Below, piece by piece: positions 2,322-59,140 of a stretch of DNA of 64,000 nucleotides (its first letter is position 1; every line of letters starts with the position of its first letter). The DNA lies in the NCBI GenBank assembly GCA_003142595.1, contig PLMU01000006.1, forward strand, positions 209,666-273,665. The letters are read 5' to 3'. The notes beneath the pieces were generated by a model. The model was not told the origin of the DNA, did not search any database, and saw nothing but the letters and a program-made list of their open reading frames with translations. The stretch comes from Phycisphaerales bacterium (lineage in GTDB: Bacteria > Planctomycetota > Phycisphaerae > Sedimentisphaerales > UBA12454). The translations under genes were made by a program, and so were the position numbers.

Positions 2322-5300
2322 TTATTTAATATCAGCGTGGTATTCCTGCAGAGACCTGATTTTTCCTTTTCCTTTTTGAATGGCTTCGATACCTTTAGCG
2401 CTTGCGTTTGCCGCTGCGATAGTCGTTATGTAAGGAATCTTATGTTTTATCGCGGCCTTTCGGATATATGAATCATCGTGCTGACTGGTTTTGCCCGCAG
2501 GTGTGTTTATCAGAATCTGAATCTCGCCGTTCTTTATCGCATCAACAATATTCGGCCTGCCTTCGTGCATCTTGTTAACCTTCTCGGCCTTGACGCCTTT
2601 TTGAGTAAGGTATTTATATGTCCCGCCGGTAGCAAGAATCTTAAAACCAAGTTTAGCTAAACTTTTCGCGACGCCTACAGCATTGCCTTTATCCTGGTCA
2701 TTTACCGTAATAAGAGCAGTTCCTTTACTCGGCAGCGTTTGCTTGGCGGCATCTTCAGCTTTGTAAAATGCCAGCCCGAACGACTCTGCCATTCCGAGCA
2801 CTTCACCGGTCGAGCGCATCTCAGGGCCGAGAACCGGGTCAACTTCCGGAAACATATTAAACGGAAATACAGATTCTTTTACTCCAAAGTGCGGGAATTT
2901 TTTATGCTGCAGTTTCAGTTCCGCAATTTTTTTACCGAGCATTAACTGCGTGGCGAGCCTCGCCATTTGTATTCCGCAAACCTTTGAAACCAGCGGCACC
3001 GTTCGCGAGGCACGGGGATTTGCCTCGAGGACATAGACTATGTCTTTAGCTATGGCATACTGCATATTCATAAGGCCAACGACATTAAGTTTTACCGCGA
3101 TTTTGCGCGTATATTCGTTAATGGTATCGAGATGTTTTTGCGGAATGCTGATTGGCGGAATAACGCAGGCCGAGTCGCCGGAGTGTATTCCGGCAAGCTC
3201 GATATGCTCCATAACCGCCGGCACAAACGCGTCGCTGCCGTCGGCAAGAGCGTCGGCTTCGCACTCAATGGCATCTTCAAGGAATTTATCAATCAGGATT
3301 GGTCTTTCCGGCGTAACTCCAACAGCAGCATCGACATATCGTTTCAGCATCTCGGCATCGTGAACAACTTCCATACCGCGTCCGCCCAGGACGTAGGAAG
3401 GCCGAACCATCAAAGGATACCCGATTTTAGCGGCGACTTTGGCAGCCTCTTCAAACGTGGTTGCCATACCGGATGCAGGCATAGGAATATCGAGGCTCTC
3501 CATTTTCTTTCGGAACCTATCGCGGTCTTCGGCAAGGTCGATGCTCTCAACGGAAGTGCCGAGAATTTTTACGCCTGCCTTTTCGAGCTGTGCAGCGATA
3601 TTCAAAGGTGTCTGTCCGCCAAACTGGCAAATTACGCCTAATGGTTTTTCTTTTTCGTAAATGCTCAGAACATCTTCGACTGTCAAAGGTTCGAAATAAA
3701 GTTTATCGGAAGTGTCATAATCGGTTGACACCGTTTCCGGGTTGCAGTTCACCATAATGGTTTCGTAACCCAAGTCGCGAAGCGCAAATGCCGCGTGCAC
3801 ACAGCAATAATCGAATTCAATGCCCTGACCGATTCTGTTTGGTCCGCCGCCGAGCACCATAATTTTATTTTTATTGCTTACACCCACCTCATCCGGAGCG
3901 TTATAGCTCGAATAATAATACGCTGCGTTTTCAACGCCGCTGACAGGAACAGCGTGCCAGCCTTCGACAACGCCGAGACCTTTGCGCTGATTTCTGATTT
4001 TTTCTTCCGTTGTGTTGAGAATCTGCGAAAGATATTTATCTGAAAAGCCGTCTTTCTTGGCCTTTGTCAGCAGTTTATCCGGAACCTGTTTGCCTTTATA
4101 TTTCAGGATTTCCTCTTCAAGCTCGACAAGTTCCTTCATCTGCTGCAGAAAGTATGGCTTGATATATGTTTTTTCGTAAAGCTCCTGGATGTCAGCGCCT
4201 TTTCTGATGGCTTCATACATAATAAATTGCCGTTCGCTTGTCGGCTCGCTAAGCATATTCATCAGTTCGGGAAGTGATTTTTTATTGAAATCTTTTGCAA
4301 AACCAAGGCCGTATCTTCCGCTTTCCAGCGAACGAATAGATTTCTGGAAGGCTTCTTTGTATGTTTTGCCGATACTCATAACTTCGCCAACGGCCCGCAT
4401 CTGCGTGCCGAGCTTGTCCTGAACGCCTTTGAACTTTTCAAATGCCCATCTTGAAAATTTAACAACGACATAATCTCCGCTTGGCGTGTATTTTTCGAGC
4501 GTTCCATCCCGCCAATACGGTATTTCATCAAGTGTCAGCCCGCCTGCCAGCATTGACGATACCATCGCGATTGGAAAGCCGGTTGCTTTTGAAGCAAGTG
4601 CGCTTGAACGGCTTGTTCGCGGGTTGATTTCGATGACGACCACCCTGCCGGTTTTGGGGTCGTGAGCGAACTGGATATTCGTTCCGCCGATAACCTGAAT
4701 GGCCTCAACAATATCATAAGAATATTTTTGCAGTTTCTGCTGAAGTTTCGGGTCGATGGTCAACATCGGAGCGGTGCAGTATGAATCGCCGGTATGAACG
4801 CCCATCGCATCGACGTTTTCAATAAAGCAAACGGTAATCATCTGGTTCTTTGCGTCGCGGACAACTTCAAGCTCCAGCTCTTCCCAGCCGAGCACAGATT
4901 CTTCAATCAGGATTTGCCCGACAAGACTTGCCGATATACCTCTGCTTGCGATGACACGGAGCTCTTCAATATTATAAACCAGTCCGCCTCCGGTTCCGCC
5001 CATAGTATATGCCGGCCGAACAACAACCGGATAGCCGAGCTCTTCAGCGACTTTTTCCGCCTCTTCAACGGTATATGCCGGTGCGCTCTTTGGCATATCG
5101 ATGCCGAGTTTGCTCATCGTGTTTTTAAACGCGATTCTGTCTTCGCCCCGCTCGATCGCATCGACGTTTACGCCGATAACCTTGACGCCGTATTTTTCCA
5201 AAACGCCGGCCTTGGCAAGTTCTGAGACAAGGTTAAGGCCGCTCTGGCCGCCCAGATTGGGCAACAGGCCATCAGGCCGTTCCTTCTTTATGATTTCCGT

Positions 5301-8356: not shown

Positions 8357-9766
8357 ATGACAAACATTATGACGATCTTCACATCTGTGCATGCAGTTCA
8401 GCTGCGCAACCGCATTGTCACGGTTTTGATGCTCACGTTACTTTCGAGCAATTACGTCTTTGCACAGGCGAATGGCGAAGCTGTAAAAGTGCTACGCGGT
8501 AAGGCGGCTTTCGGCGATTGGCGGGAGGATGCTCCAAGCGTGCGGCGGCTAATCACACCAATGGATCTGCCGGATATTGGCCCGGAAACACCCAACATCG
8601 TAGAGGTAGTCCCGCAGCCTGCGGGTGTTCGGCCGCAGGTTCCGAAAGGTTTTTCGGTCGAGATGGTGACTTCGGGACTTGCTCAGGCGCGTTTGATTCG
8701 TGTCGCGCCCAACGGCGATCTCTTTGTCGCTAATAGTTCGGCAAACGAGGTGCGCGTTTACCGGATCCCTCCCGGCTCGGCAAAACCTACCGTCAGCGAG
8801 ATTTTCGCTACCGGACTCCGCCAACCTTATGGCATCGCATTCTACCCGCCGGGACCGAATCCCGCATGGATATACATCGCCAACTCCAATGGCGTTGTTC
8901 GCTTCCCCTACAAGAACGGGGTTCTAAAGACGACCGCCAAACCGGAACGTATTGTCGAATATATTCCGCCGGCCCACCACTGGACCAGAGACATCCTGTT
9001 CACTCCCGACGGCAATCGGATGTTAGTTTCGGTCGGCTCGGGGTCCAACATCGCTCTTGATATGTTCCCCGCGCCGCACGTCCCAGGTGACGTCAACGGC
9101 TGGAACAAGACCCATCAGCTCGGCGCCGCTTGGGACACTGAAGAAGGCCGCGCCAACATTCTTTCATTCGATCCTGAAGGCAAAAACCAGAAAATAGTTG
9201 CTACAGGGATACGCAATCCCGCCGGTATCACTATTCAACCAGCCACGGGCCAGCTTTGGGCAGTGGCCAATGAACGCGACGGGCTCGGCGACAATACTCC
9301 TTTTGAGTACGCTACGCACGTTAAGGAAGGCGCCTTCTTCGGCTGGCCGTGGTACTACATCGGCGGCCACGAGGACCCCCGCCACAAAGGTGAGCGCACC
9401 GACCTCAAGGACCAAACCACAATTCCAGACGTCTTGATCCAGGCTCATTCAGCCCCGCTCCAGATTGTGTTCTACGACGGCAACGATTTTCCGGCCGAGT
9501 ACAAGGGCAACGCCTTCGTTACGCTGCATGGTTCGTGGGACCGCTCTCGAAGGACCGGCTATAAAGTGGTGCGCCTGCTCTTCGACAATAGCGGCAAACC
9601 GACCGGCGAATACGAGGACTTCATGACAGGCTTCGTCATTTCTGACAAGCAAGTTTGGGGTCGCCCTGTTGGAGTAGCGGTCGCCGCGGATGGATCGCTC
9701 TTTGTTACCGAAGACGGCAACGGAACGATTTGGCGAATTTCGTACCAGAAACCTGATGCTCGCTGA
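8357..9766 (+). CDS. glucose/sorbosone dehydrogenase-like beta-propeller protein
   Basis: GFSVEMVTSGLAQARLIRVAPNGDLFVANS, GLRQPYGIAFYP, GIRNPAGITIQPATGQLWAVANERDGLGD; SD AAAGGAG. Confidence 0.85.
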   Translation: MTNIMTIFTSVHAVQLRNRIVTVLMLTLLSSNYVFAQANGEAVKVLRGKAAFGDWREDAPSVRRLITPMDLPDIGPETPNIVEVVPQPAGVRPQVPKGFSVEMVTSGLAQARLIRVAPNGDLFVANSSANEVRVYRIPPGSAKPTVSEIFATGLRQPYGIAFYPPGPNPAWIYIANSNGVVRFPYKNGVLKTTAKPERIVEYIPPAHHWTRDILFTPDGNRMLVSVGSGSNIALDMFPAPHVPGDVNGWNKTHQLGAAWDTEEGRANILSFDPEGKNQKIVATGIRNPAGITIQPATGQLWAVANERDGLGDNTPFEYATHVKEGAFFGWPWYYIGGHEDPRHKGERTDLKDQTTIPDVLIQAHSAPLQIVFYDGNDFPAEYKGNAFVTLHGSWDRSRRTGYKVVRLLFDNSGKPTGEYEDFMTGFVISDKQVWGRPVGVAVAADGSLFVTEDGNGTIWRISYQKPDAR

Positions 9767-9783
9767 CCGGCTGCGACTCATCC

Positions 9784-9891
9784 AATAACTACTGCGGCGG
9801 AGTGGACATCAACGGTTCAGGCGCGATTGACTTCGCGGATTCCACTGATTTATTTCGCCGCGAAAAAAACTTGCTTTTCTTTTCAGTTTAA
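9784..9891 (+). pseudogene. dockerin-like fragment out of frame with the preceding CDS
   Basis: Reads NNYCGGVDINGSGAIDFADSTDLFRREKNLLFFSV*. Confidence 0.5.
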
Positions 9892-10095
9892 GGCTATATT
9901 GTTTCTTTAAGGCCGGAGAAATCTTTCGATGCGCTACGCTTGCTCAGGACAGGTGGCTATTAAGGAAATCACACCTTTGCCTGCCCTCGTGGTATGCTTC
10001 CTTGGATTGGCAGACGGAGGATCCGTCAACATTGCCGTCCGGCAGACGGGCTTTGACTCGGTTTATGCAGTTTGTGTAATCGTTGTTGGGCATTA

Positions 10096-10875
10096 ATGAA
10101 AAAAATGAAGCGTTTCCATATCACTAGCATTAAAGATTACTTTCATGGCCTTTGTGATATGACAGAACGCCGATTTCAGGATCTGCCAACTCCTCTACCA
10201 TGGATTGAGCCTTCCATAAACATGCTTTACTTGGAGTCGGTGTTATCATATGTTTTGGGTAACAACTTTTGTTCAATAATAAGTATGAGCGCATTATTAG
10301 AGCATGTCCTTCGACTTGCGCTATTGGACAGAAACAACACTGGCCTGACTAGCTCTCTTTCGTTAAAACAGCTTGGTAAAATAAGTAGTATTAGCGTTGC
10401 AATTGAAAAGGCCACCTCTGAAGGCATAATAGACACCAAAGACAAAGCTTGGTGGGATAGCATCGCTATGGTTATCAGAAACAAAAGTGCTCATTATGTC
10501 ATCCCAAAATTGATCAAAGATTTCACCAAACAGAAATATGATGAAGGTCAAGAAGATCGCGAGAAATATTCTCCCGTTTATTATCGTCAAACAAATGATA
10601 AAGGTGAACCCAAAACTCCGCTTTCACTCGATTGGGGGATGTTCTTTCACAAAGTTGGTTATTTCATAGCTAAAGCATATATCGTTGATGGAACATTCTA
10701 TTTAAAGAAAGTCATTGAGACCACAGATTGGAAGCCAGATAAATCCTATTGGGCCAGCCAAGAAGATGAATATAACTCTTTCTTTTCTTACAACTGGAAC
10801 ATTGCTGAGATGATCGAGTCACTTAACAGCGTTAACGAGCGGTCGAAGTCGGACGGTCCAAAGGCGGTCGAGTAA
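10096..10875 (+). CDS. uncharacterised protein with HEPN-like RxxxxH motif
   Basis: IAMVIRNKSAHYVI; ATG at 10096 preferred to TTG at 10072; followed by SIR2-like gene. Confidence 0.6.
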   Translation: MKKMKRFHITSIKDYFHGLCDMTERRFQDLPTPLPWIEPSINMLYLESVLSYVLGNNFCSIISMSALLEHVLRLALLDRNNTGLTSSLSLKQLGKISSISVAIEKATSEGIIDTKDKAWWDSIAMVIRNKSAHYVIPKLIKDFTKQKYDEGQEDREKYSPVYYRQTNDKGEPKTPLSLDWGMFFHKVGYFIAKAYIVDGTFYLKKVIETTDWKPDKSYWASQEDEYNSFFSYNWNIAEMIESLNSVNERSKSDGPKAVE

Positions 10876-46198: not shown

Positions 46199-48598
46199 AT
46201 GAGCGAAAAATTAAAACTAATTGACATTGTAAACATTGACCCTGTTTTTGAAGGCGGCCAGCCCAGCTTATCTGAAGAGCCAAAGGAAATAAAACTCCCC
46301 GAAGTCATTGGCATTCTGCCGGTCCGCAATGCCGTTGTATTCCCCGGCACAGTTATGCCGCTTGCCGTCGGCCGCCTCAAGAGCCAGAAATTGCTTGAAG
46401 ACTCAAAAACCGGCGATGCCGTAATTGGACTTGTCACACAAAAAAATTCCAGTGTCGACAACCCGACCATAAACGACATTTTCAAAATCGGCACTGCTTC
46501 TTCGATTCTAAAAGTCGTCAAACTCCCGCAGGGCTCGGTCAACGTTATCGTGCACGGCCTGATAAGATTCAAAATTATAGAGGTTGTTTCCGAAGAGCCT
46601 TATCTTAAAGTCAAAATTCAGCCGCTTACTTCTAAAACCAAAATTACAAAAAAGCTCAAGGCACTGATGATAAGCGTCCGTGACGCAGCCAATAAAGTAA
46701 TACATCTTAGTCCAAACGTGCCGGAAGAAGCCTCTATTCTTCTTGAGAATATTGAGACCCCTTCTGCTCTTGCCGATTTTCTGGCCGCTAATCTCAGCAT
46801 TGCAATCCCGGAAAAGCAGCAGCTTCTCGAAGAGCTTGATGCAAAAAAGAGGCTTGAAAAAATTTCTCTCGTCCTTGCCAATCAACTGGAAGTTCTCGAA
46901 TTAAGTCATAAAATCCAGGGCCAAGTCAAACAGTCCGTCGAGAAAAACCAGCGTGAATACTTCCTGCAGGAACAGCTAAAGGCCATTCAGACCGAGCTCG
47001 GCCAGGACGACAAAAGAACCGAAGACCTAAAGGACCTCAAAGAGAAAATCAAAAAGGCAAAGATGCCTGCAGCAGTCGAGGCTGAGGCATTTTCCGAGCT
47101 TGACCGCCTGACCAAAACACCGCAGGCCTCCCCGGACTACGGCGTAATCAGAACATATCTTGACTGGATATGCGAATTGCCGTGGGATATAAGCACTGTT
47201 GATTCTCTGGACATCAAAAAATCACAAAAAATACTGGAGAAAGACCATTACGGCCTTGATAAAGTTAAAAAACGGGTCCTTGAATTCCTGGCCGTAAAAA
47301 AACTCAACCCAGCCGGCAAAAGCCCTATTTTATGTTTTGTTGGTCCGCCCGGCGTCGGCAAAACAAGTCTTGGCAAATCTATCGCTCGCGCAATGCAGCG
47401 AAAATTCATAAGAATCTCCCTTGGCGGAATTAGAGATGAGGCCGATATCAGGGGACATCGAAGAACATATATTGGTGCCCTTCCGGGAAGAATCCTGCAG
47501 GAGCTGAGAAAATGCGGCAGTAAAAATCCGGTATTTATGCTTGACGAAATGGACAAAATCGGTGCCGATTTCAGGGGAGACCCCGCCAGTGCTCTGCTGG
47601 AGGTGCTCGACCCGGAGCAGAACAATACTTTTACCGACCATTATCTTGACCAGCCGTTCGACCTTTCCAGTGTTATGTTTATCGGCACAGCAAATTATAC
47701 TGAACCTATCCCCCCTGCCCTGATGGACAGAATGGAGATTATCGAGCTGCCGGGTTACACTGAAAATGAGAAATTGAATATCGCAAAGAAGTATCTCATT
47801 CCGCGTCAATTGACCGAGAACGGCCTGGGCGAAAACAAGCTCCAGATTACCGACGATGCTGCCAGCGAGATTATTCGCCGTTATACTGCCGAAGCGGGCG
47901 TTCGCAATCTTGAGCGGAACATTGCGGCCATTTGCCGTTCAGTCGCTACAGAGGTTGCCAAGGGACGAACCCGTTCGACAACCATCTCGAAAGAGCAGTT
48001 GTATAAAATTCTCGGCCCCATAAGGCACGAATCCGAGCTTGCGATGCGGACAGCTGTGCCGGGCGTTGCTACCGGTCTTGCATATACTCCGTATGGCGGC
48101 GAAATTCTGTTTGTGGAGTCCGCGTCGATGCCGGGCAAGGGTGGGCTTATTCTTACCGGCCAGATTGGCGAGGTGATGAAGGAAAGCGCACAGGCTGCCT
48201 TTTCAATTGTGAAGGAGAACTTCAAAAGTTTCGACATTAATCCGACGCGTTTTGCAAAGCAGGATTTTCACATACACGTCCCTGCTGGCGCAGTCCCCAA
48301 GGACGGCCCCAGTGCCGGCACAGCGATATTTACTTCTATTGTTTCGCTTTTGACAAACACTCCTGCCAAACCTGAAGTTGCAATGACAGGTGAAATAACT
48401 CTCAAGGGGCATGTTTTGCCTATTGGCGGTTTGAAGGAAAAAATTCTTGCCGCTAAGCAGGCTGGGATCAAGATGGTCATTCTGCCATTCAGGAACAAGA
48501 AGAATATGGTTGAAGTGCCTAAAGAGGCGAAAAAAGGAATGAAATTTGTCTTTGTCAAAAAAGTCCAGGAAGTACTAAAATACGCCTTGCAGAAATAA
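46199..48598 (+). CDS. lon: ATP-dependent Lon protease
   Basis: GPPGVGKTSLGKSIARAMQRKFIRISLGGIRDEADIRGHRRTYIGALPG; PKDGPSAGTAIFTSIVS. Confidence 0.97.
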   Translation: MSEKLKLIDIVNIDPVFEGGQPSLSEEPKEIKLPEVIGILPVRNAVVFPGTVMPLAVGRLKSQKLLEDSKTGDAVIGLVTQKNSSVDNPTINDIFKIGTASSILKVVKLPQGSVNVIVHGLIRFKIIEVVSEEPYLKVKIQPLTSKTKITKKLKALMISVRDAANKVIHLSPNVPEEASILLENIETPSALADFLAANLSIAIPEKQQLLEELDAKKRLEKISLVLANQLEVLELSHKIQGQVKQSVEKNQREYFLQEQLKAIQTELGQDDKRTEDLKDLKEKIKKAKMPAAVEAEAFSELDRLTKTPQASPDYGVIRTYLDWICELPWDISTVDSLDIKKSQKILEKDHYGLDKVKKRVLEFLAVKKLNPAGKSPILCFVGPPGVGKTSLGKSIARAMQRKFIRISLGGIRDEADIRGHRRTYIGALPGRILQELRKCGSKNPVFMLDEMDKIGADFRGDPASALLEVLDPEQNNTFTDHYLDQPFDLSSVMFIGTANYTEPIPPALMDRMEIIELPGYTENEKLNIAKKYLIPRQLTENGLGENKLQITDDAASEIIRRYTAEAGVRNLERNIAAICRSVATEVAKGRTRSTTISKEQLYKILGPIRHESELAMRTAVPGVATGLAYTPYGGEILFVESASMPGKGGLILTGQIGEVMKESAQAAFSIVKENFKSFDINPTRFAKQDFHIHVPAGAVPKDGPSAGTAIFTSIVSLLTNTPAKPEVAMTGEITLKGHVLPIGGLKEKILAAKQAGIKMVILPFRNKKNMVEVPKEAKKGMKFVFVKKVQEVLKYALQK

Positions 48599-48638
48599 TG
48601 ATTGTTTTCTGGAACTTAAAGGCTAAAATGAGAGTTTG

Positions 48639-48713
48639 CGGGGCGTAGCGCAGTTTGGCTAGCGCGTCGGACTGGGGGTCCGAAGGTCGCAGGTTCAAGT
48701 CCTGTCGCCCCGA
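48639..48713 (+). tRNA. tRNA-Pro (anticodon GGG)
   Basis: CGGGGCG/CGCCCCG acceptor stem, TCGGA-CTGGGGG-TCCGA anticodon arm, GGTTCAAGTCC T-arm. Confidence 0.95.
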
Positions 48714-48739
48714 TTTTTCCGCTGAAACAATGGCGGGAG

Positions 48740-49720
48740 TTGAATCTATTGAAAATTCAATGCCAATTATGTCCGAAACAGTGTTTTATTAATCCTGGCC
48801 AAAGTGGCGGATGCCGGGTAAGAATAAACATTGACGGCATTTTGCGAACAGTTGTGTATTCCTATCCCTGCTCGATGCATATTGACCCAGTAGAGAAGAA
48901 ACCATTTTTTCATTTTCTGCCCGGCACAAGCACCTTTTCGCTGGCAACTGTCGGCTGCAATCTTCACTGCAAAAACTGCCAGAACTGGGAAATCTCGCAG
49001 CTCAATCCCGAAGACAGCCAGGCTGCTTTTTGTCCCCCCGATAAACTTGTCGAACTTGCCAAAAGCAATAATTGCCCATCGTTATCCTATACATATACCG
49101 ACCCCGTAGTTTACTATGAATACGCATTGGACAGCTCAAAACTTGCAAAAGCCGCCGGCCTCCGCAACACGCTCGTTACCGCAGGATACATAAATAAAGA
49201 ACCTTTGAAGCAGCTTCTTAAATTCGTAGATGCCGCCAGGATAGACCTTAAATCAATGTCTGATGATTTTTACAAAGACATCTGCTCGGCAACTTTAAAA
49301 CCTGTTCTCGATTCTCTTGTTCTGACAAAATCAAGCGGCGTTCATCTTGAAGTTATAAATCTTGTTATCCCAACTCTCAACGACAGTCCCGAGCAGATTC
49401 GCACTCTTGCCCGCTGGGTAAAGTCTAATCTTGGCGCCGATACGCCTTTGCATTTCTCGCGGTTTTATCCGCAATACAAAATGCAATATCTGCCTTCGAC
49501 CTCTGCCGAAACTCTCGACACTGCCCGCCAGATAGCGTTTAGCGAAGGAATGCAATACGTTTATATCGGCAACATCACCAGCAAAGAAGGCCAAAATACC
49601 TATTGTCCCGGCTGCAAAACTCTGCTCATCGAGCGAAGCGGCTTTACAGTCTTGAAAAATCAGCTGAAAAATGGAACCTGCCCATCCTGCGGCAAAGAAA
49701 TTTACGGAGTTTGGAAATGA
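48740..49720 (+). CDS. amrS: AmmeMemoRadiSam system radical SAM enzyme
   Basis: CQLCPKQCFINPGQSGGCRVR; VGCNLHCKNCQNWEISQ CxxxCxxC; HFSRFYPQYKMQYLPSTS; TTG start. Confidence 0.9.
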   Translation: MNLLKIQCQLCPKQCFINPGQSGGCRVRINIDGILRTVVYSYPCSMHIDPVEKKPFFHFLPGTSTFSLATVGCNLHCKNCQNWEISQLNPEDSQAAFCPPDKLVELAKSNNCPSLSYTYTDPVVYYEYALDSSKLAKAAGLRNTLVTAGYINKEPLKQLLKFVDAARIDLKSMSDDFYKDICSATLKPVLDSLVLTKSSGVHLEVINLVIPTLNDSPEQIRTLARWVKSNLGADTPLHFSRFYPQYKMQYLPSTSAETLDTARQIAFSEGMQYVYIGNITSKEGQNTYCPGCKTLLIERSGFTVLKNQLKNGTCPSCGKEIYGVWK

Positions 49721-49899
49721 CACGACGCCAATTTATCCAATTTGTTCTAAAAACAGCTTCAGCTTTTGCTATTGCTGCGTATTTTTTAGGCGAAAAAGTT
49801 TCACCTCGAAAATTCATCTATGCCCTTCGGCACAAAACGTATCCGGGTACTGTAAAACCCTTATCAGATATTAATACTCAGGAAAAATGGAGCGGTTAA
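49717..49899 (+). CDS. 60-aa protein with twin-arginine-like N-terminus
   Basis: MTRRQFIQFVLKTASAFAIAAYFLG; ATGA overlap with preceding gene. Confidence 0.6.
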   Translation: MTRRQFIQFVLKTASAFAIAAYFLGEKVSPRKFIYALRHKTYPGTVKPLSDINTQEKWSG

Positions 49900-49900
49900 A

Positions 49901-51439
49901 ATGAAAAAAATAATATTTTTTATTACGGCAGTCATCCTATTGAACACATCTATAGTGTTATCAGCCCCTGATAAACAAGTTATATTCAATTCAACACTAG
50001 CAGGCCAATGGTATCCGGCCGATGCCAACACATTAAAAAATGACATTGCAAAGCTTTTCCAAAAATCCGACGTCAAACCTGACGAAGATACTATCGCACT
50101 GATACTGCCTCATGCAGGTTATCAATATTCCGGCCGAACTGCTGCCATGGGGATTCAGACCATTGGCAAACAATACAAACGAATCATTGTCATCGGCCCT
50201 TCGCATTATACCCCGATTGAAGATGTGCTCGGCGTCCCGCAGGCAGCAATTTATCAGTCGCCTCTGGGCCAGGTTACGATTGATACTGAATTTATTAATA
50301 AGCTCTTGACCTTTCCGCAGTTTAAGGTAATTCCGCAGGCAAACGACCGCGAACACAGCACACAAATACAAATTCCGCTGCTGCAGTTTACACAGAAGGA
50401 TTTTAAAGTCGTGCCAATTGTTGCCGGCCAATGCTCACCGCAAACAATTTCCAAAGTTGCTTCGATTCTTAAAAGTATGATTGACAATGACACTTTGATA
50501 ATCGCCAGTTCCGATTTTACTCATTATGGCTCAAACTACGACTATGTGCCTTTCAAGGATAACATCTCCCAGCGGCTAAAAGACCTCGATATGGGCGCAT
50601 ATAAATTTATTGAAAAAATAGACAGCAACGGATTTATGGATTATCGAAAGAAAACCGGCGCGACAATCTGCGGCTATATTCCGATTTCAATATTGCTTTC
50701 GATGCTCGATAAATCATCGCTGCCGCAGTTAATAAACTACGCCACTTCAGGCCAATTGACCGGCGATTTCAACAACTCTGTCAGTTATTTCTCGATTGCT
50801 TTTTCAGGTCAGTGGTCGAAACCTTTGCCCGTTAAACAGCAAAGCAGTGTTACAGGATTAACCCAGGATGATGAAAAGCAGCTTCTGACTCTCGCCAGAT
50901 ACATTCTTATAAATCTTGTGGGAAAAAATCCGATGCCTAAAATATATGATGCAAACTTCAGCGACCGATTGAAAGCTAAAGGTGCCGCATTTGTTACTCT
51001 ATATAAAATCATGGGTTCCGCCGCACCGGGTTCCCACAAGAATTATCAGTTAAGAGGCTGCATCGGCGATACCTTTCCTCGCCAGTCGCTGTATAATTCC
51101 GTAATTTACAACACTCTCATGGCTGCCCGCAAAGACTCGCGATTTGTTCCGGTCGTCTCTGATGAATTAAAGGACATTAAAATAGAAATATCTGTTTTGA
51201 CAGTCCCGCAGCCGGTTGCTTCAGCCGAAGACATCAGGGTTGGAATCGACGGAGTTGTTTTGAAGATTGGCACACGTTCCGCTGTTTTTCTGCCGCAGGT
51301 AGCGACGGAGCAGAACTGGAGCCGTGAGGAAATGCTTAAAAATCTGTCTCTAAAGGCCGGCTTGTCCTCAGATGCATGGCAGCATGACGCCGAATTTCTC
51401 ACATTCCAGGCTGAAGTCTTTGGTGAAGCCGAAAAATGA
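49901..51439 (+). CDS. AmmeMemoRadiSam protein B (Memo)-protein A (AMMECR1) fusion
   Basis: AGQWYPADANTLKND..LILPHAGYQYSGRTAAMG (Memo) and C-terminal LRGCIGDTFPRQSLYNSVIYNTLMAARKDSRF (AMMECR1). Confidence 0.9.
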   Translation: MKKIIFFITAVILLNTSIVLSAPDKQVIFNSTLAGQWYPADANTLKNDIAKLFQKSDVKPDEDTIALILPHAGYQYSGRTAAMGIQTIGKQYKRIIVIGPSHYTPIEDVLGVPQAAIYQSPLGQVTIDTEFINKLLTFPQFKVIPQANDREHSTQIQIPLLQFTQKDFKVVPIVAGQCSPQTISKVASILKSMIDNDTLIIASSDFTHYGSNYDYVPFKDNISQRLKDLDMGAYKFIEKIDSNGFMDYRKKTGATICGYIPISILLSMLDKSSLPQLINYATSGQLTGDFNNSVSYFSIAFSGQWSKPLPVKQQSSVTGLTQDDEKQLLTLARYILINLVGKNPMPKIYDANFSDRLKAKGAAFVTLYKIMGSAAPGSHKNYQLRGCIGDTFPRQSLYNSVIYNTLMAARKDSRFVPVVSDELKDIKIEISVLTVPQPVASAEDIRVGIDGVVLKIGTRSAVFLPQVATEQNWSREEMLKNLSLKAGLSSDAWQHDAEFLTFQAEVFGEAEK

Positions 51440-53994
51440 AGTTCGCTCGCTATTTTTTAATATTCTGTTATGGCCTTTTCACCATTGCCGCACAAACTCT
51501 GCTTTTTCGTGAGTTTATCACAACGTTCCAGGGCAGCGATATCAGTGTCGGCCTGTTTTTTGCGTCGTGGTTTTTCTGGATTGGCCTGGGGGCAGCTTTT
51601 GCGTATCGCTCCTGTAAAATCACTGACAGCCTGCAAAAAAATATCGACCTTTTATTCTTCGCATACATTCCCACTTTTATTCTTGAGCTTTTATTAATCG
51701 TCCATGCCCGCCATATCGCTTCCGTTAGCTCATACACTCTGCTTTCCATTCGCCAGATGATTTCTCTTTCGTTGCTTGTCAATGCCCCCATCAGTATTAT
51801 CACCGGCGTATTTTTCCCGCTCGCCTGCCGATGGATTCAAAGCTCAAGCCGTTTCCCTGTTTCAAACGTTTACATTATCGAAGCAGCGGGCGCATTTCTC
51901 GGCGGAATCGGCGCAACCGTTCTGCTCGCCGTCGGTGAAAGCTCCATAACTATTTTCTTCCTGCTCGCTTTTTTAATTTCATTCGCATTATTCCTCGTTA
52001 ATAAGAATTCAAAACCAAAACCCATTTTTGCATTAGTCCTTGCCCTTTGCATCCTACTTTTTCTTGCCGCCGGTACCGATAAGGCTTTAAACCGCTATCT
52101 CCAAACTGTAAAATGGTCGAAATTACTGCCCCCCGAAGCGATGACAGGCTCGTTTCAAACCGCCCAGGCCGAATATCTTTACGGCACCTACCGCGGTCAA
52201 TGGGTCGTCATCAGCCAGGGCAGCACTGCCGAAGCAATCCCCGACAGGGAAACCACCGGCAGAATCGCCGCAATCGCCCTGTCCCAAAAACCCGACGCCA
52301 AAAATATTCTCGTCATCGGCTCCGGCCTAGGCCTTTGCTATGAATTTCTTAATCTGCCTCAGATTCAGCAGGTGACCTGGGCCCACTGCGATAATCAATA
52401 TATTCAGCAGGTCGATAAATTCCTGCCGCCTCAGTTCAAGACTAAAGATTCTCGGCTTGTATGTCCTCCCGGCGACATCCGCACCCAATTGTCCGGCCAA
52501 AAAAACGATTATGACATCGTGATTATCAATCTGCCGCAGGTAACAAGTTCCGTCCTGAACCGTTATTTCACCGTCGAATTTTATCAGCAACTGAAAAAAT
52601 CAATTGCCGCAGACGGCATTGTCGCTGTCAGAGTTACCGCCGGCGAAAATATTATGGGCACGGAATTGATTGACCTAGGTGCTTCGATAAAATCGACACT
52701 CGAAAAAGTTTTCTCGCATTTTGTCTTAACGACCGGCGACGACAGTTGGTTCATCGCGTCTGATTCCTACAATCTTACAGGTGTCCCCGGCATACTGCGC
52801 GACCGTTTCGCAGGTATTAAAAATGCCTCTGCCGTATTCACTCCGCCGGCTCTGCTTTCGGTCTATCTGCCCGACCGTGCCGCCGCCGCAATGGAAAATT
52901 ATAATGACGCCGATTTGCCGCAGAACTTGCTTATAAACACTGATTCAAGACCCCTGACCAATCTTTACAGTTTATTGCTCGCCTCAAAACAATCCGGCGC
53001 CCCCGTTACAAAAATCGTAAAACTCCTCGCATCGACCGGCGTTACCATATTTTTAATTCCCATTTTTATTTTCGTCATTTTACGGCTTTTATATATCATC
53101 CGCTCGCGAAATCAAAATAGTGTCTCAAGTCTCGATAGCAGTTTTCTGGTTTTCACCGCCGGCTGGCTCGGCATCGGCACAACAATCGTCCTGATGTATC
53201 TCTATCAGACCCGCTTCGGCTCCTTGTATCTGCACATCGGCACTATCTCGTCTTTATTTATGATTGGCATTACTACCGGCGCCGCATTGATTCGATACTC
53301 GCCGGGCAGTCTAAATCAAAAACTATTTGTCGCGATTCCAATTCACGCGGTTCTGCTCATCGCCATCGCCCTGCTGCCCGTTGATTTCTGGACGCATTGG
53401 ACTTTCGCGGCAATTTTTTTCCTCTGCGGCCTGTGCAGCGGCGCGTATTTTCCAATCGCCGCAGAACAGTTTGCCGAAAGCGGCCTTGAAACAGGTTTTG
53501 CCGGTGCAAAACTTGAAATTGCAGACCATATTGGCGCATCAGCGGGCAGCCTGATAACCGGCCTTGCCCTTGTGCCGGTGCTTGGAACAAATGCAACAAT
53601 ATTGGTATTTATCGCACTTATCTTAGCTAATTTGCCGGCAGTCTTGTTTCAGTCATTTAAAACCGGCAACAATCTGAAATCGCAAAAGGACTTATCTCCC
53701 CAAAAAACGGAATACTCGCTGCCGACTCGTTTCCTGCCGGCCGCAATTTTAATATGTGCGATTTTGATATTAGCTATCTATTTATATATTTACAGCAAGC
53801 CTGCCGAATCCATTCCAGCGGCAGCGATACCTGTAACAAAATCATCCTCCACTTTACCGCCAGGCACGGATACCAAAACGCAAACAATTTCATCTGGCCG
53901 GCCGCGGGACGTCGATATCCAGCGGGTTCACACCATGATTGAAGAGAAAAAGCTCTCTGACCACGAAGCTAAATATTATAAAAAGAGTGAGTAG
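51436..53994 (+). CDS. multi-TM protein with spermidine synthase-like domain
   Basis: TM segments, central KNILVIGSGLGLCYEFLNL...VTWAHCDNQ...YDIVIINLPQVTSSVLNRYFTVEFYQQLKKSI, second TM block. Confidence 0.82.
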   Translation: MKFARYFLIFCYGLFTIAAQTLLFREFITTFQGSDISVGLFFASWFFWIGLGAAFAYRSCKITDSLQKNIDLLFFAYIPTFILELLLIVHARHIASVSSYTLLSIRQMISLSLLVNAPISIITGVFFPLACRWIQSSSRFPVSNVYIIEAAGAFLGGIGATVLLAVGESSITIFFLLAFLISFALFLVNKNSKPKPIFALVLALCILLFLAAGTDKALNRYLQTVKWSKLLPPEAMTGSFQTAQAEYLYGTYRGQWVVISQGSTAEAIPDRETTGRIAAIALSQKPDAKNILVIGSGLGLCYEFLNLPQIQQVTWAHCDNQYIQQVDKFLPPQFKTKDSRLVCPPGDIRTQLSGQKNDYDIVIINLPQVTSSVLNRYFTVEFYQQLKKSIAADGIVAVRVTAGENIMGTELIDLGASIKSTLEKVFSHFVLTTGDDSWFIASDSYNLTGVPGILRDRFAGIKNASAVFTPPALLSVYLPDRAAAAMENYNDADLPQNLLINTDSRPLTNLYSLLLASKQSGAPVTKIVKLLASTGVTIFLIPIFIFVILRLLYIIRSRNQNSVSSLDSSFLVFTAGWLGIGTTIVLMYLYQTRFGSLYLHIGTISSLFMIGITTGAALIRYSPGSLNQKLFVAIPIHAVLLIAIALLPVDFWTHWTFAAIFFLCGLCSGAYFPIAAEQFAESGLETGFAGAKLEIADHIGASAGSLITGLALVPVLGTNATILVFIALILANLPAVLFQSFKTGNNLKSQKDLSPQKTEYSLPTRFLPAAILICAILILAIYLYIYSKPAESIPAAAIPVTKSSSTLPPGTDTKTQTISSGRPRDVDIQRVHTMIEEKKLSDHEAKYYKKSE

Positions 53995-54079
53995 ATTCAT
54001 AAATTCCTGGAAGTATTAGTGATATCTCTGCAACCTTATCTTTTGGGCAGTTTTTGGCCAGTACCGCTTCTTGATTATC

Positions 54080-54148
54080 TTGTAAGTCATGATTTGATAA
54101 AGCATTGTGATTTTCGGGAGACAATTTCAAGTCCTGTCGCCCCGATTT
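54080..54148 (+). repeat. repeat copy A: 45-bp arm plus tRNA-Pro 3'-end core
   Basis: 63/69 identical to 56795..56863; core 23/23 identical to the tRNA-Pro 3' end. Confidence 0.93.
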
Positions 54149-54510
54149 CCCCGCTGAAAATGCGGGCATTCTCTTTCTGAAAATGGGGTTTCCTTGCCTT
54201 ACAAACCTGCTTACGAAAAGAAACTACAAAACTTTTAAAGAACGCAAAAGTTGAGAGTTTGAACACCTTTGAGGTTGTACTCAGTTTAACAAAAAATTAT
54301 ATGGTACGTTCTATTTTTTGTTGACAGAATAAGCTCGGACACTTTAGTATTAGTACGATTTTGCTGAGGAATAGAAAAAGGCTTTTTCTCGGCTGTTCAT
54401 CAATCTCCTTTAACAATTTTTGCCGGTGAGTAGTGATATTGGACCAATATCGAAGGTAAAAGTCGATTTTTTCTATTTTTTCTATTAAATGCGCAAAGGA
54501 GGACTAAGGA

Positions 54511-56514
54511 ATGGAAACGCTGACACGTGGAGTAATAGATAATTTTCTATCGAGAAGGCAAAAAAACCAACCTAAATTTTCCAGTCTGAATAAATACATC
54601 TTTTTGTTATTTATGGGCTTGATGTTGCACTTGTCGGTAGTTACTAAAGTGGCGGCAACCACGATCAGCAGCAATGGAACAGGCGGAGGTGATTGGAATA
54701 CAGACACAACATGGATAGGAGGAGTTGTTCCCACGGCGATAGACAATGTTATTATTCAAGGAAACGATGTTGTGACGCTTGCGGCAGCGGGCAGTTGTGC
54801 AAACCTGACAATGAATGCAGGTACTAAGCTTACCATAACTGCCGGGGGGCCTATTCCAGGTTCATCCTGGTCATTAGACCCTGCAAGCACTATTGAATTC
54901 AATACTATCGTTCCGAAAATCTGGGTCAATCCGACTTTCGGAAATCTCATATTTGACATTCCAGATTATTCACTCCATCCAAATATAAACATAACCGTAG
55001 CCGGCAATTTAAGTATTCTTAATAACACATTAAGAGGTATAGGAACTGTTTCCGGGACAAATATTCATAATATTGCAGGAAATGTCAATCTATCCGGAAC
55101 CGGAATAATCACAGCAGTAAATCAAAGCAACCCAACTACTGCAAGCTGCACGTGGAATATTGGTGGGAGCGTATTATTAAGCGGTAATAATATTCACAAC
55201 AGACTCATCCTCTATGAGAGTGCAGGACCTCATACAGGTTCTGCTGTATTTAATATTAATGGAGACCTTACTGTCGGACAGGCCAGCCAAGTAATGCTTA
55301 AGACTACTTCAAACAGTACTGCAAATTATCCTGAAGGTATTATCAACTTGAAAGGGAATTTTGTGAATAATGGGACCATCAATGTGAATGATGTGAATGG
55401 TGTGAATCCGGGCACATCACCGGGCTTAAGTATTAATTTTGTCGGCACGAGCCCGCAAGATTGGTCTGGCACCGGTAAATTCTCAGTTTCAGCTTTTACG
55501 GTAAATATGAATATCAACAACCCTGCCGGGGTAACGCTTAGCAGACAGCAGGATATTTCTACCAGGACGGTAGTAATACTGACAAACGGAAAGCTTACAA
55601 CGACAGGTACAAACCTGCTGAGAATCGAGGAGAAAGGCTCCCTCATCGGCGGCAGTTCGTCCAGCTATATAAACGGTCCATTAGCCAGGAGAATTATAAG
55701 TGGACTACAGAACCTGGTGTTCCCAATTGGAGATGCAGCAAAGTACACACCGGTGAATCTTGAATTTTTTGGGGATGTCAATGAAGGTACGATAACGGTA
55801 AGCACGACGCCGGGAATACACCCACAGATTGCCACCTCTGATTTGAACAGCAGTAAGACCTTGGACCGGTACTATACGGTGAAAAACACTATAGCGACAT
55901 TTGGCAATATCACAGCAACATTCAACTTTGATCCGACGGATGTCATCGGCGGTGCTGATCCGACAAAATATGTAGTGAAGAAATTTGACACAGGAACATG
56001 GACAACGCCGACAACAGCCAATCCGTTAGCAACAAGCATTCAGGCAACAGGTGTGACATCATTAAACAGTGACTTTGCAGTTGGTGAACTCCATGGCACG
56101 TTGATATATAAAATTACAGGCTACATTAAAAATGCTTGTAAAATACCAATAGCGGGTGTAGTTGTAGATGCGAACAACGGCGGCAGCTCAGACATAACCG
56201 ATGCCGATGGCCACTACGAGGTCTGGGTTGGCAACAACTGGTCCGGTATAGTAACGCCCAGTAAAGCCTATTATACTTTCGAGCCGAATAGCAAAGCATA
56301 TACCAATGTTCTTGAAGACAAGACAGACCAGAGCTATTTAGCGGATAATATCTACGACCTTGACTGCGATAGTCTTATCAGTTGGGGCGATGTCGCCGTG
56401 ATGAGCGATAACTGGCTTGAAACCGGTGAAGGTATTCCAGGCGATTTCAATAATGATGGCATTGTGAACTTCCTAGACTTTGCCGAGTTTGCCCAGATAT
56501 GGCAGGAGCAATAG
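54511..56514 (+). CDS. secreted protein with C-terminal dockerin-like repeats
   Basis: ISSNGTGGGDWNTDTTWIGGVVPTAIDNVIIQGNDVV; carboxypeptidase-regulatory-like segment; DCDSLISWGDVAVMSDNWLE..DFNNDGIVNFLDFAEFAQIW. Confidence 0.8.
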   Translation: METLTRGVIDNFLSRRQKNQPKFSSLNKYIFLLFMGLMLHLSVVTKVAATTISSNGTGGGDWNTDTTWIGGVVPTAIDNVIIQGNDVVTLAAAGSCANLTMNAGTKLTITAGGPIPGSSWSLDPASTIEFNTIVPKIWVNPTFGNLIFDIPDYSLHPNINITVAGNLSILNNTLRGIGTVSGTNIHNIAGNVNLSGTGIITAVNQSNPTTASCTWNIGGSVLLSGNNIHNRLILYESAGPHTGSAVFNINGDLTVGQASQVMLKTTSNSTANYPEGIINLKGNFVNNGTINVNDVNGVNPGTSPGLSINFVGTSPQDWSGTGKFSVSAFTVNMNINNPAGVTLSRQQDISTRTVVILTNGKLTTTGTNLLRIEEKGSLIGGSSSSYINGPLARRIISGLQNLVFPIGDAAKYTPVNLEFFGDVNEGTITVSTTPGIHPQIATSDLNSSKTLDRYYTVKNTIATFGNITATFNFDPTDVIGGADPTKYVVKKFDTGTWTTPTTANPLATSIQATGVTSLNSDFAVGELHGTLIYKITGYIKNACKIPIAGVVVDANNGGSSDITDADGHYEVWVGNNWSGIVTPSKAYYTFEPNSKAYTNVLEDKTDQSYLADNIYDLDCDSLISWGDVAVMSDNWLETGEGIPGDFNNDGIVNFLDFAEFAQIWQEQ

Positions 56515-56794
56515 AAATAATTGCGGAAGACAGCCTGCAATCCTAATTTTGGCAATGTCTCCAAAGAAGTCAATCTCTGCGAATTGTGAAGACACCAAAC
56601 CATAAATTCCCGCCCAAAAACAAAGAATTTTAAAATATTTCAATAGGAAATAGGATATATAATCCTTTGTTCTTTTACCCTTTGACACTAAAACAAGATT
56701 CATTTTAGCCGCTATCTTGAAATTTAGTATGGCGTCTCTTGAGGTCGGTATTGGAGTCCCAGATAAACGGGGGCTGGGGCGATTCTTTGTTTTG

Positions 56795-56863
56795 TTGTAA
56801 GTTATGATTTGATAAAGCATTGTGATTTTCGGGAGACAGGTTCACGTTCTGTCGCCCTGATTT
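56795..56863 (+). repeat. repeat copy B: 45-bp arm plus degenerate tRNA-Pro 3'-end core
   Basis: 63/69 identical to 54080..54148; 25/28 to tRNA 3' end (56837..56864 vs 48690..48717). Confidence 0.92.
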
Positions 56864-56896
56864 TGCTTGAAGAATTAAATGATTGTGCGAGAAGTT

Positions 56897-59140
56897 TTAA
56901 GAAACCTGCCCTGCCAGATGTTCGACGTGCGAATTTTGATATTCCCGATAAGACTCGAATAATTCGCCGAAATAACCGCCCTTGAGGAGCCTTACGCCAA
57001 TAAGAATTGCACCAAGTACATTGGGGTTAATTTCTTTAAGTTCACGCACAATACGTTGTGCAGTGCCGCGTTTTGTAATCGCTGTATTGAATACCACCAC
57101 AGTACCATCTGCCAGTGCGGCAATCGCTTTTGCATCGCTAACAAGCATCGGAGGGCCGTCTATTATTACACGTTCATAACGCTGCTTTGCGAAATCGAGA
57201 AGTTCAAGCATTCTTCGACCGCCGAGCAGTTCTCCAGGATTTTTAGGTAGAGTACCGCTGTCTATAACATCCGTATCCGACAGTCCGGTAGGTCTGATAA
57301 TTTCTTCAATACTATAATTGCCGTTAAGGTAACCACTCAATCCTTTATCCTTATTTTCTAATCCGGTAGGGCTGCCATTTGAATTTGGAAAGATTTTATC
57401 CAAACATGGTCTGCGGAAATTAGCATCAATTAATAGAACCCTGCTGCCTTCCGCAGCAAATACCGCTGCAGTATTCACCGCAACTGTTGTTCTGCCTTCT
57501 CCGGCATTTCCGCTTGTGATAAAAATGACGTGTTGACTTTCTGCGGCCACAGAAACTTTAAGATTTGTTCTGAATTGCCTGTAACATTCGCTCATCATCG
57601 ACATTGGCAGTTGTCTTACTACTTTCCACATATCGGCCTTGCTGGTGTTAGAATCGAGGTCTTTGTGCGTAACCATACCAAGCAGCGAAATATTAACATA
57701 CTTCATTACATCTTTGGGCGTTCGAAGCAGGTCATTAAGGAACTCTATAAGAAATGCCAAACCTACACTAAACATAAATCCAAGAAAAGTGCCTGCCGGC
57801 AAATATACGACGATATGGGGCGAGCTCAACCGCAATGGCACAGGAGCAAGCCCAACAGGTTTAACTTTTGAGGCTTCGGAATCTTGTTTAATGAGATTAT
57901 ATTTGCTTATCTGTTCCTGAATCGCAAAAAGTTTAGTCTTTGTCTCTTCTCTGTCTGAAACAAGCTGAGCATAAGTAGCCTTTGTATTGTCAAGTTCTTT
58001 CTGCTCATTTTCCGTCTGTGCCCGTAATTCTTCAAGTTTTGCAAGACGGTTGGTAATAACTGCAAACTGGTCTTTGGCCGTAGTAACATCGGAGTCACGA
58101 ATCTGCAGAGCTTTTGAATTACTTCGAGCGTCTTTCTCTGCTATAGTCTGACGTATGACCTCACGTAACTGCTGAACTGCCCTGTGATTTTCACCAAAAT
58201 TAGTCTCCAACCTTGCAAGTTCCGTCTCTAATGATGCTATTCTCTCAATAAGCGACATAACAACCTGATCGTTTTCAGTATCACGCTGTACTATTTCATC
58301 GGTGGTTTTTCTTTCTTCAAAATTTGCAACGCTCGAACGAAGCTGCTCGATATCAGCTTCAAGCTTCATTTTCTCTATTTCAAGACTCCCTAATTTTTGT
58401 GTAATAGTATGGGCAAAATTGCCTTCCTGTCCTCCTCCCTCAAGTTGTGTTATGCCCGATGAACGTCTAATATCTGTAAGCGAACTGCTAATACTCTGAA
58501 GTTTGTTGCGAAGTTCATTTTCCTGCTGGCTAAGATCACGGAGCTTGCCGCTAATATCGGTTTCCGCGGTACTCTGCTGCGATTTCACAAATAAATCTAC
58601 CATTTGGTTGACAATAAGAGCCGACTCCTCAGCATTACCGCAGGTCATACTTATCAATATGTAACTACTGTTTCTGTCCGCTATTGCCCCCAGATTTTTG
58701 TCGAGATTGTCTATAGCTTTCAGGACATCGTCCCCGAAACTTTTGAACCATTGGGTCTCACGCACCGCATCCCTGCGAATCAATTCCTGGAACATATTTT
58801 GCTGCTTAATCAAAGTTGCCTTAGAAAACCTGAATTCATATGCTATATCCTTTGCAGCAAGAGGCGCTCCGATTTGTGTAGGATCACTCTGTCCCGGAGA
58901 TAATACTTCGATAAAAGTTCTTGCTGTATATTTTGGATCAAATTTTCTAAGAACGGCCCATAAACCCGTTCCTGCAACGGCCCCAAAAAATGTTAAAATA
59001 ATTATAAGCAAAACATGTCGGCGAAGAATATCCAGTATCTCTTTGGGCGTTATGACTATCGCCGCCGGGGCAAATGCCGAACCTGGATGCCGCATCGTCT
59101 GGCCATGACCTGATGACACGGGTTGTTTGTTATTCATCAT
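56897..59140 (-). CDS. Wzc/GumC-like polysaccharide biosynthesis protein with BY-kinase-type ATPase domain
   Basis: Wzz N-terminus, coiled coil, VIFITSGNAGEGRTTVAVNTAAVFAAEGSRVLLIDANFRRP. Confidence 0.9.
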   Translation of the reverse strand: MMNNKQPVSSGHGQTMRHPGSAFAPAAIVITPKEILDILRRHVLLIIILTFFGAVAGTGLWAVLRKFDPKYTARTFIEVLSPGQSDPTQIGAPLAAKDIAYEFRFSKATLIKQQNMFQELIRRDAVRETQWFKSFGDDVLKAIDNLDKNLGAIADRNSSYILISMTCGNAEESALIVNQMVDLFVKSQQSTAETDISGKLRDLSQQENELRNKLQSISSSLTDIRRSSGITQLEGGGQEGNFAHTITQKLGSLEIEKMKLEADIEQLRSSVANFEERKTTDEIVQRDTENDQVVMSLIERIASLETELARLETNFGENHRAVQQLREVIRQTIAEKDARSNSKALQIRDSDVTTAKDQFAVITNRLAKLEELRAQTENEQKELDNTKATYAQLVSDREETKTKLFAIQEQISKYNLIKQDSEASKVKPVGLAPVPLRLSSPHIVVYLPAGTFLGFMFSVGLAFLIEFLNDLLRTPKDVMKYVNISLLGMVTHKDLDSNTSKADMWKVVRQLPMSMMSECYRQFRTNLKVSVAAESQHVIFITSGNAGEGRTTVAVNTAAVFAAEGSRVLLIDANFRRPCLDKIFPNSNGSPTGLENKDKGLSGYLNGNYSIEEIIRPTGLSDTDVIDSGTLPKNPGELLGGRRMLELLDFAKQRYERVIIDGPPMLVSDAKAIAALADGTVVVFNTAITKRGTAQRIVRELKEINPNVLGAILIGVRLLKGGYFGELFESYREYQNSHVEHLAGQVS

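Follow-up and report, generated by a model that had tools for sequence, protein, structure and literature searches.

Tandem tRNA-Pro insertions in a Planctomycetota genome and a probable family of integrases that split their own gene

The window analyzed here is a 64,000-nucleotide (nt) stretch of contig PLMU01000006.1 from a Phycisphaerales bacterium (assembly GCA_003142595.1), in which the 3′ end of a tRNA-Pro(GGG) gene (48639..48713, plus strand; called by ARAGORN) recurs twice downstream. The two intervals set off by these repeats are very probably tRNA-Pro elements of a self-splitting integrase family, whose integrase genes have since been lost or were supplied from elsewhere. At the sequence level, this conclusion is carried by a split gene architecture, continuity of the reading frame across the split, an unbroken version of the gene on a circular contig, an empty site in a sister species, and a tandem junction in the window. 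From these, we infer the order of events, whether the integrases were lost or acted in trans, and how loss of a tail would affect integrase behavior.

Repeats of the tRNA-Pro 3′ end are the top direct-repeat families of the 10-kb region. The last ∼23 nt of the tRNA gene form the first copy of the attachment (att) core, and repeat searches placed the second and third at 54119..54148 and 56837..56863 (both plus strand). As the earlier note on this DNA had reported, 48694-48727 recurs at 54126-54159 with 32/34 matches (94% identity), and the third copy, at 56837, is real, its strong match stopping at 56863 (71% identity between 48694-48727 and 56841-56874). This copy is the most diverged of the cores, and the proposal that the farther copy is the older is plausible on that basis, though argued from three copies only. 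Both distal copies also have an additional left arm, but it is longer than the ∼45 bp first described: 84 nt are common to 54065-54148 and 56780-56863 (87% identity), and the arm matches a copy on contig C16 of the same genome (54036-54118; 92%) and one in a sister genome, G010 (54037-54148; 90%). A genome-wide repeat search (2.28 Mb, 18 contigs) returned a single further copy of the arm, at C16:285940, abutting the 3′ end of the transfer-messenger RNA (tmRNA) gene.

On its minus strand, the left arm corresponds to the 3′ tail of a gene for a tyrosine integrase. Detached tail A (ENHNALSNHDLQDNQEAVLAKNCPKD..., 54032..54118, minus strand) is truncated at its 3′ end and shares 92% nucleotide identity with the tail of the tmRNA element and 90% with that in G010; detached tail B (ENHNALSNHNLQQNKE..., 56780..56836, minus strand) is also truncated and is 89% identical to the C16 copy over 64 nt. 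Terminator hairpins and integron attC-like sites were also considered as explanations for the distal repeats, but both were dropped because the arm is integrase coding sequence. The same holds for the portion of the 34-nt match beyond the tRNA end, which had been taken for tRNA flank. Directly after the tRNA lies a 3′ coding-end remnant of integrase A (48714..48740, minus strand; PAIVSAEKSGRQDLNL, with PAFSAENWRRGDSN in an intact cousin), which is short and weaker than the other remnants; these ∼27 nt are present in the window genome and in G010 and absent after tRNA-Pro in the sister species G012. The corresponding remnant of integrase B (54149..54197, minus strand) reads KETPFSEREC, a 4-nt deletion, and PAFSAGK, and the right flank of copy 2 (54138-54197) shares 84% nucleotide identity over 64 nt with the 3′ end of the integrase gene at the tmRNA. 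Copy 2 thus has the layout expected of two insertions in tandem: tail A, core, and then the beginning of integrase B. The window therefore contains a tandem pair. To the left of copy 3 is tail B, and to its right is the chromosome. The observation that no recombinase is visible in either segment holds for open reading frames (ORFs), with none of the genome's 6 Phage_integrase matches falling within the window, but it overlooked the integrase-gene remnants right of copy 2 and after the tRNA. Since segments A and B hold only such 3′-end remnants, each is a relic or a nonautonomous unit rather than an active element.

The element at the tmRNA of the same genome (locus L029) shows the complete arrangement. 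Its integrase ORF (3103-4557) lies on the strand opposite the tmRNA gene (2813-3165) and ends in codons that are antisense tmRNA (...AENWRRGDSNPRPETFQNRLLHV), and a second core 8.35 kb away is followed by WRRGDSNLPPENHNPLSNHNLQQNQEAALAKNCPKDNPCPDLKQVISAWPNLPEHIRKTIKTLIEANITAPKG on the integrase strand. The integrase therefore stands at one end and the tail, with an arm ∼90% identical to the window's, at the far end; the arms in the window are truncated copies of this tail. The same element encodes an N6/N4 DNA methylase beside a 273-amino-acid (aa) protein without a family match (8500-10162), which is possibly the restriction partner of the methylase.

Comparison of the tRNA-Pro site among relatives agrees with insertion. 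In G012, a sister species from the same genus as the window genome, the predicted empty site exists: lon, tRNA-Pro, 61 bp, and the wzz/BY-kinase (bacterial tyrosine kinase) gene follow one another with no insert. The homologous Wzz/BY-kinase gene is the chromosomal right neighbor of the pair in the window (56897..59140, minus strand). In G010, the lon/wzz interval holds a single unit with tRNA-Pro at one end and a distal core plus arm at the other, enclosing genes unrelated to those in the window that we named by reading their sequences (acyl-CoA synthetase-like, acetyl-CoA hydrolase/transferase-like, and AcuC-like). The tRNA-Pro site in the window has a regenerated 3′ end with a displaced copy at the far end, and integrases of the same subfamily occur at tRNA-Pro(GGG), tRNA-Pro(CGG), and tRNA-Pro(TGG) in relatives. 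The empty site, the single unit, and the tandem junction at copy 2 support the original proposal of serial tyrosine-recombinase integration at tRNA-Pro, and the outcomes that had been named against it, the same genes after tRNA-Pro without the repeats in all relatives or the repeat at many sites unrelated to tRNA genes, did not occur.

Alternatively, the tRNA 3′ end could have been recombined or duplicated without an integrase, leaving att-like repeats around ordinary chromosomal genes. The AmmeMemoRadiSam operon of segment A and the genes of the G010 unit do occur at other or neighboring loci in relatives (for the latter, G004 has a close relative behind carB and carA, on the same contig as tRNA-Pro), so these genes are not strictly tied to the elements. 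Against this, the arm is an integrase tail of the kind that integrase-bearing elements have at their far end, and the empty site in the sister species, together with the integrase remnants, largely refutes the idea, which we regard as very unlikely.

In a separate observation, several relatives show an inversion of tRNA-Pro with respect to the wzz/BY-kinase gene and, in G007, with respect to lon as well (L106, L102, L104, L105, and L109 compared with L103 and window positions 46199-59140); this neighborhood is repeatedly rearranged.

The form that the gene would take before integration was found on contig JAQTSY010000011.1 (L174/L290), where an unbroken 569-aa ORF runs from the integrase into the tail through a core that lies antisense to a tRNA-Arg(CCT)-like 3′ half. 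The contig ends overlap exactly by 127 bp, which indicates a 15,463-bp circle, and no tRNA gene was found in the 14 kb scanned. The gene after the tail on the circle is homologous to the gene after the detached tail of the tmRNA element, so the gene order is restored in the circle. Conserved after the integrase tail in these two elements is a ∼205-aa cysteine-rich protein (L029, 10605-11225; L290, 10693-11301), likely a zinc ribbon. The circle also has genes whose sequences suggest a type I restriction-modification system. Comparable integrase-plus-tail-like fused ORFs were confined to this contig, L225, and L261, plus a decayed piece in G099; further candidates, in G127 and others, were mostly chance upstream frames.

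The split arrangement extends well beyond this genome. Detached tails were detected in 88 of the 148 genomes of the order (tail profile A1) and, at a stricter cutoff, in 36/392 genomes of a wider draw from the phylum. Twenty contigs carry an integrase and a tail no more than 50 kb apart; on 19 of them, the two share a strand and the tail lies 5′ of the integrase, the order that circular permutation demands (random expectation, 1/4; P ≈ 6e-11). Joining the integrase and tail at their shared core kept the reading frame in all 18 resolvable pairings from 17 contigs (chance, ∼3e-9). These cores span 23 to 86 nt and lie in Glu, Lys, Arg, Ser, Asn, or tmRNA genes where the target was called. Of 85 integrase ORFs in 80 named loci, from records that nearly all bear the title Planctomycetota or that of a subgroup, 46 have a 3′ end overlapping an antisense tRNA. 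The element's attachment site (attP) thus lies within the integrase coding sequence, as the unbroken circle gene and the 18/18 in-frame pairings attest, and after integration the gene is partitioned to both element ends. From the split architecture, the frame continuity, and the unbroken gene on the circle, it follows that integration splits the integrase gene and swaps its C terminus. At tRNA-Glu(CTC) on one contig (G007:C31; L038/L089), a single integrase has two tails in succession to one side, 19.7 kb from each other, making this a larger array of such tandem units.

Several observations weigh against this interpretation. The integrase and tail are on opposite strands in G118:C164, and two pairs (G044 and G075) have no common core. 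The joined frame meets a stop with the tail-side core or tail allele in G023, G036, and G134, and in G095 a stop falls just before the core; some loci could therefore not restore an open gene in their present state, and we read these stops as decay or as chromosomal sequence preceding the core. The circular contig was binned with a Candidatus Paceibacterota genome although its integrase is planctomycete-like, probably through a binning error. The window holds no functional integrase, its core-side remnants are short (27 and ∼50 nt), and in G012 and G006 the AmmeMemoRadiSam operon stands elsewhere, at loci that have neither a tRNA gene nor att sites. All of the data come from draft assemblies, mostly metagenomic.

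An integrase ORF might also cross the core incidentally, with the tail being attP arm DNA that contains binding sites and is open by chance. Arm DNA next to attP would be expected, and the tail has no match in Pfam or NCBIfam. This explanation, which we consider improbable, has to contend with the frame kept in 18/18 pairings and with the conservation of the tail as protein across the families of the order: a stretch of 50 to 70 aa ending in W-x-x-LPEHIKxAIxxLI. Over 191 pairs with <40% nucleotide difference, nonsynonymous differences (mean pN, 0.26) were fewer than synonymous ones (pS, 0.60), with a third-position excess; the ratio of ∼0.44 is indicative of constraint on the tail as a protein, the pairs not being independent. 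Structure prediction for the circular-form integrase was poor from the single sequence (predicted local distance difference test [pLDDT], 39) and better with AlphaFold2 on a 23-sequence alignment (pLDDT, 72.5). In the latter model, the integrase is ordered and a long linker of low confidence leads to an isolated pair of helices at residues 536-566. This tail unit is predicted fairly confidently (block pLDDT, ∼82), which also speaks against a chance frame. The model matches tyrosine recombinases, including Brujita Int, archaeal Xer, and lambda Int. Searches of a 92-aa junction protein against viral contigs and of two tails against plasmids returned no match.

In the mechanism that we propose, two integrative elements would have entered the tRNA-Pro 3′ end in succession, and the integrase genes of both would later have been lost, or else the elements would have been brought in by an integrase acting from elsewhere. 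With attP inside the tyrosine-integrase coding sequence of this planctomycete family, the gene on the circle runs from the catalytic part through the tRNA-derived core (antisense to the T-arm and acceptor stem) to the tail. Recombination with the tRNA gene linearizes the circle at the core; the catalytic part comes to lie beside the tRNA, its last codons becoming antisense tRNA, and the tail stays behind at the far end. Loss of the tail may alter the integrase, for example, by favoring integration in the circle and limiting re-excision from the chromosome. On the simplest reading, the full enzyme would exist only before integration and the altered chromosomal form would provide a built-in bias against re-excision, although the tail may be inert. 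The catalytic HxLRH and Tyr motifs are kept in the integrated form, which may stay active. A more tentative extension is that throughout the phylum the att site of such integrases serves as a protein-level switch between two enzyme forms that differ in recombination direction: the circle would encode the full integrase with its helical tail, and integration would swap that tail for an antisense-tRNA peptide. Under the same extension, detached att ends would act as minimal attP sites for integrase-less metabolic cassettes moved in trans, two of which would be in the window.

Four of the six tail-bearing units in the genome have no integrase: segments A and B and the units on contigs C13, at tRNA-Glu(CTC), and C6, at tRNA-Glu(TTC) (L031, 5393-12151; L032, 2092-4868). 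The tail reading frame of the tRNA-Glu(TTC) unit is broken. Such units would be decayed elements or cassettes moved in trans. For the window, we consider it possible, if doubtful, that the units are nonautonomous cassettes, with cargo between attP ends, moved by a full integrase such as that at the tmRNA or at the tRNA-Pro genes of relatives. Their compact and intact gene content suggests as much: segments A and B and the G010 unit hold only short attP-proximal integrase pieces, the C13 and C6 units likewise lack an integrase, and operon A has relatives at other loci. Yet the truncated tails and the 4-nt deletion that shifts the frame of the integrase B remnant look like decay, and we did not find two independent insertions of one integrase-less unit. 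For segments A and B, we lean toward decay.

Segment A (48740..53994, plus strand) contains three genes, assigned by family matches (NCBIfam TIGR04337, TIGR04336, and TIGR04335; Pfam PF01564): an AmmeMemoRadiSam radical S-adenosylmethionine enzyme (48740-49720), a Memo-AMMECR1 fusion (49901-51439), and a membrane protein with a spermidine-synthase domain (51436-53994). The AmmeMemoRadiSam operon may be true cargo of the segment. The spermidine-synthase-like protein has 852 aa in the window versus ∼1,255 to 1,280 aa in two relatives (L303, 3454-7221; L304, 3243-7085), without an internal stretch found in those homologs. Segment B encodes a 667-aa secreted protein (54511..56514, plus strand) that had no Pfam or NCBIfam match and whose C terminus reads like a dockerin module.

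With these results, the principle of a self-cutting integrase extends to a large group of bacteria. Its form here, in which a conserved tail is removed but the catalytic domain is left whole, allows the control of recombination direction to be tested directly. The far ends of planctomycete islands are otherwise hard to find, and the detached tail can serve as a sequence tag for them; the architecture also offers an origin for short hypothetical ORFs that carry antisense-tRNA strings (GGIRTRD and GFEPAT) beside a WxxLPEHIKxAI tail. Attachment sites that overlap the last codons of bacterial int genes are known; the novelty here lies in the conservation of the tail, the constraint on the frame, and the wide occurrence. 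We found no bacterial self-splitting integrase in the open-access literature searched, a coverage that leaves out older work on att sites overlapping int 3′ ends.

Among the closest known systems, the tycheposons of Prochlorococcus resemble the window units in being tRNA-targeted, in carrying metabolic cargo, and, for some, in having no recombinase of their own; they are not known to have a split-integrase architecture. In integration-dependent immunity of the BPs type, attP lies inside the repressor gene and integration changes the C terminus of its product. Those mycobacteriophages (BPs and relatives, e.g., PMC4557955) are, like the family described here, bacterial systems with attP in a coding gene, but the gene that is split encodes the repressor rather than the integrase. 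Islander-type tRNA/tmRNA islands (PMC4383910) share the regenerated tRNA 3′ end, the displaced copy, tandem occupancy, and exchange of cargo at one site, whereas in that model no integrase ORF extends across the core to a conserved tail at the far end. The archaeal SSV1-type “suicidal” integrases (SSV1, pTN3, and pT26-2) likewise have attP in the integrase gene, target tRNA genes, and leave the gene partitioned to both element ends; recombinases that disrupt their own gene have been described as restricted to archaea (PMC8371274). The planctomycete proteins match PF00589 only and not the SSV1-type family Phage_integr_3 (PF16795), and their hosts are bacterial. Both fragments of the archaeal enzymes are reported to be inactive, whereas here the cut falls near the 3′ end and detaches no more than a C-terminal tail, leaving an intact catalytic domain next to the tRNA. 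The family is a planctomycete variant of the archaeal “suicidal” integrase, widespread within its order.

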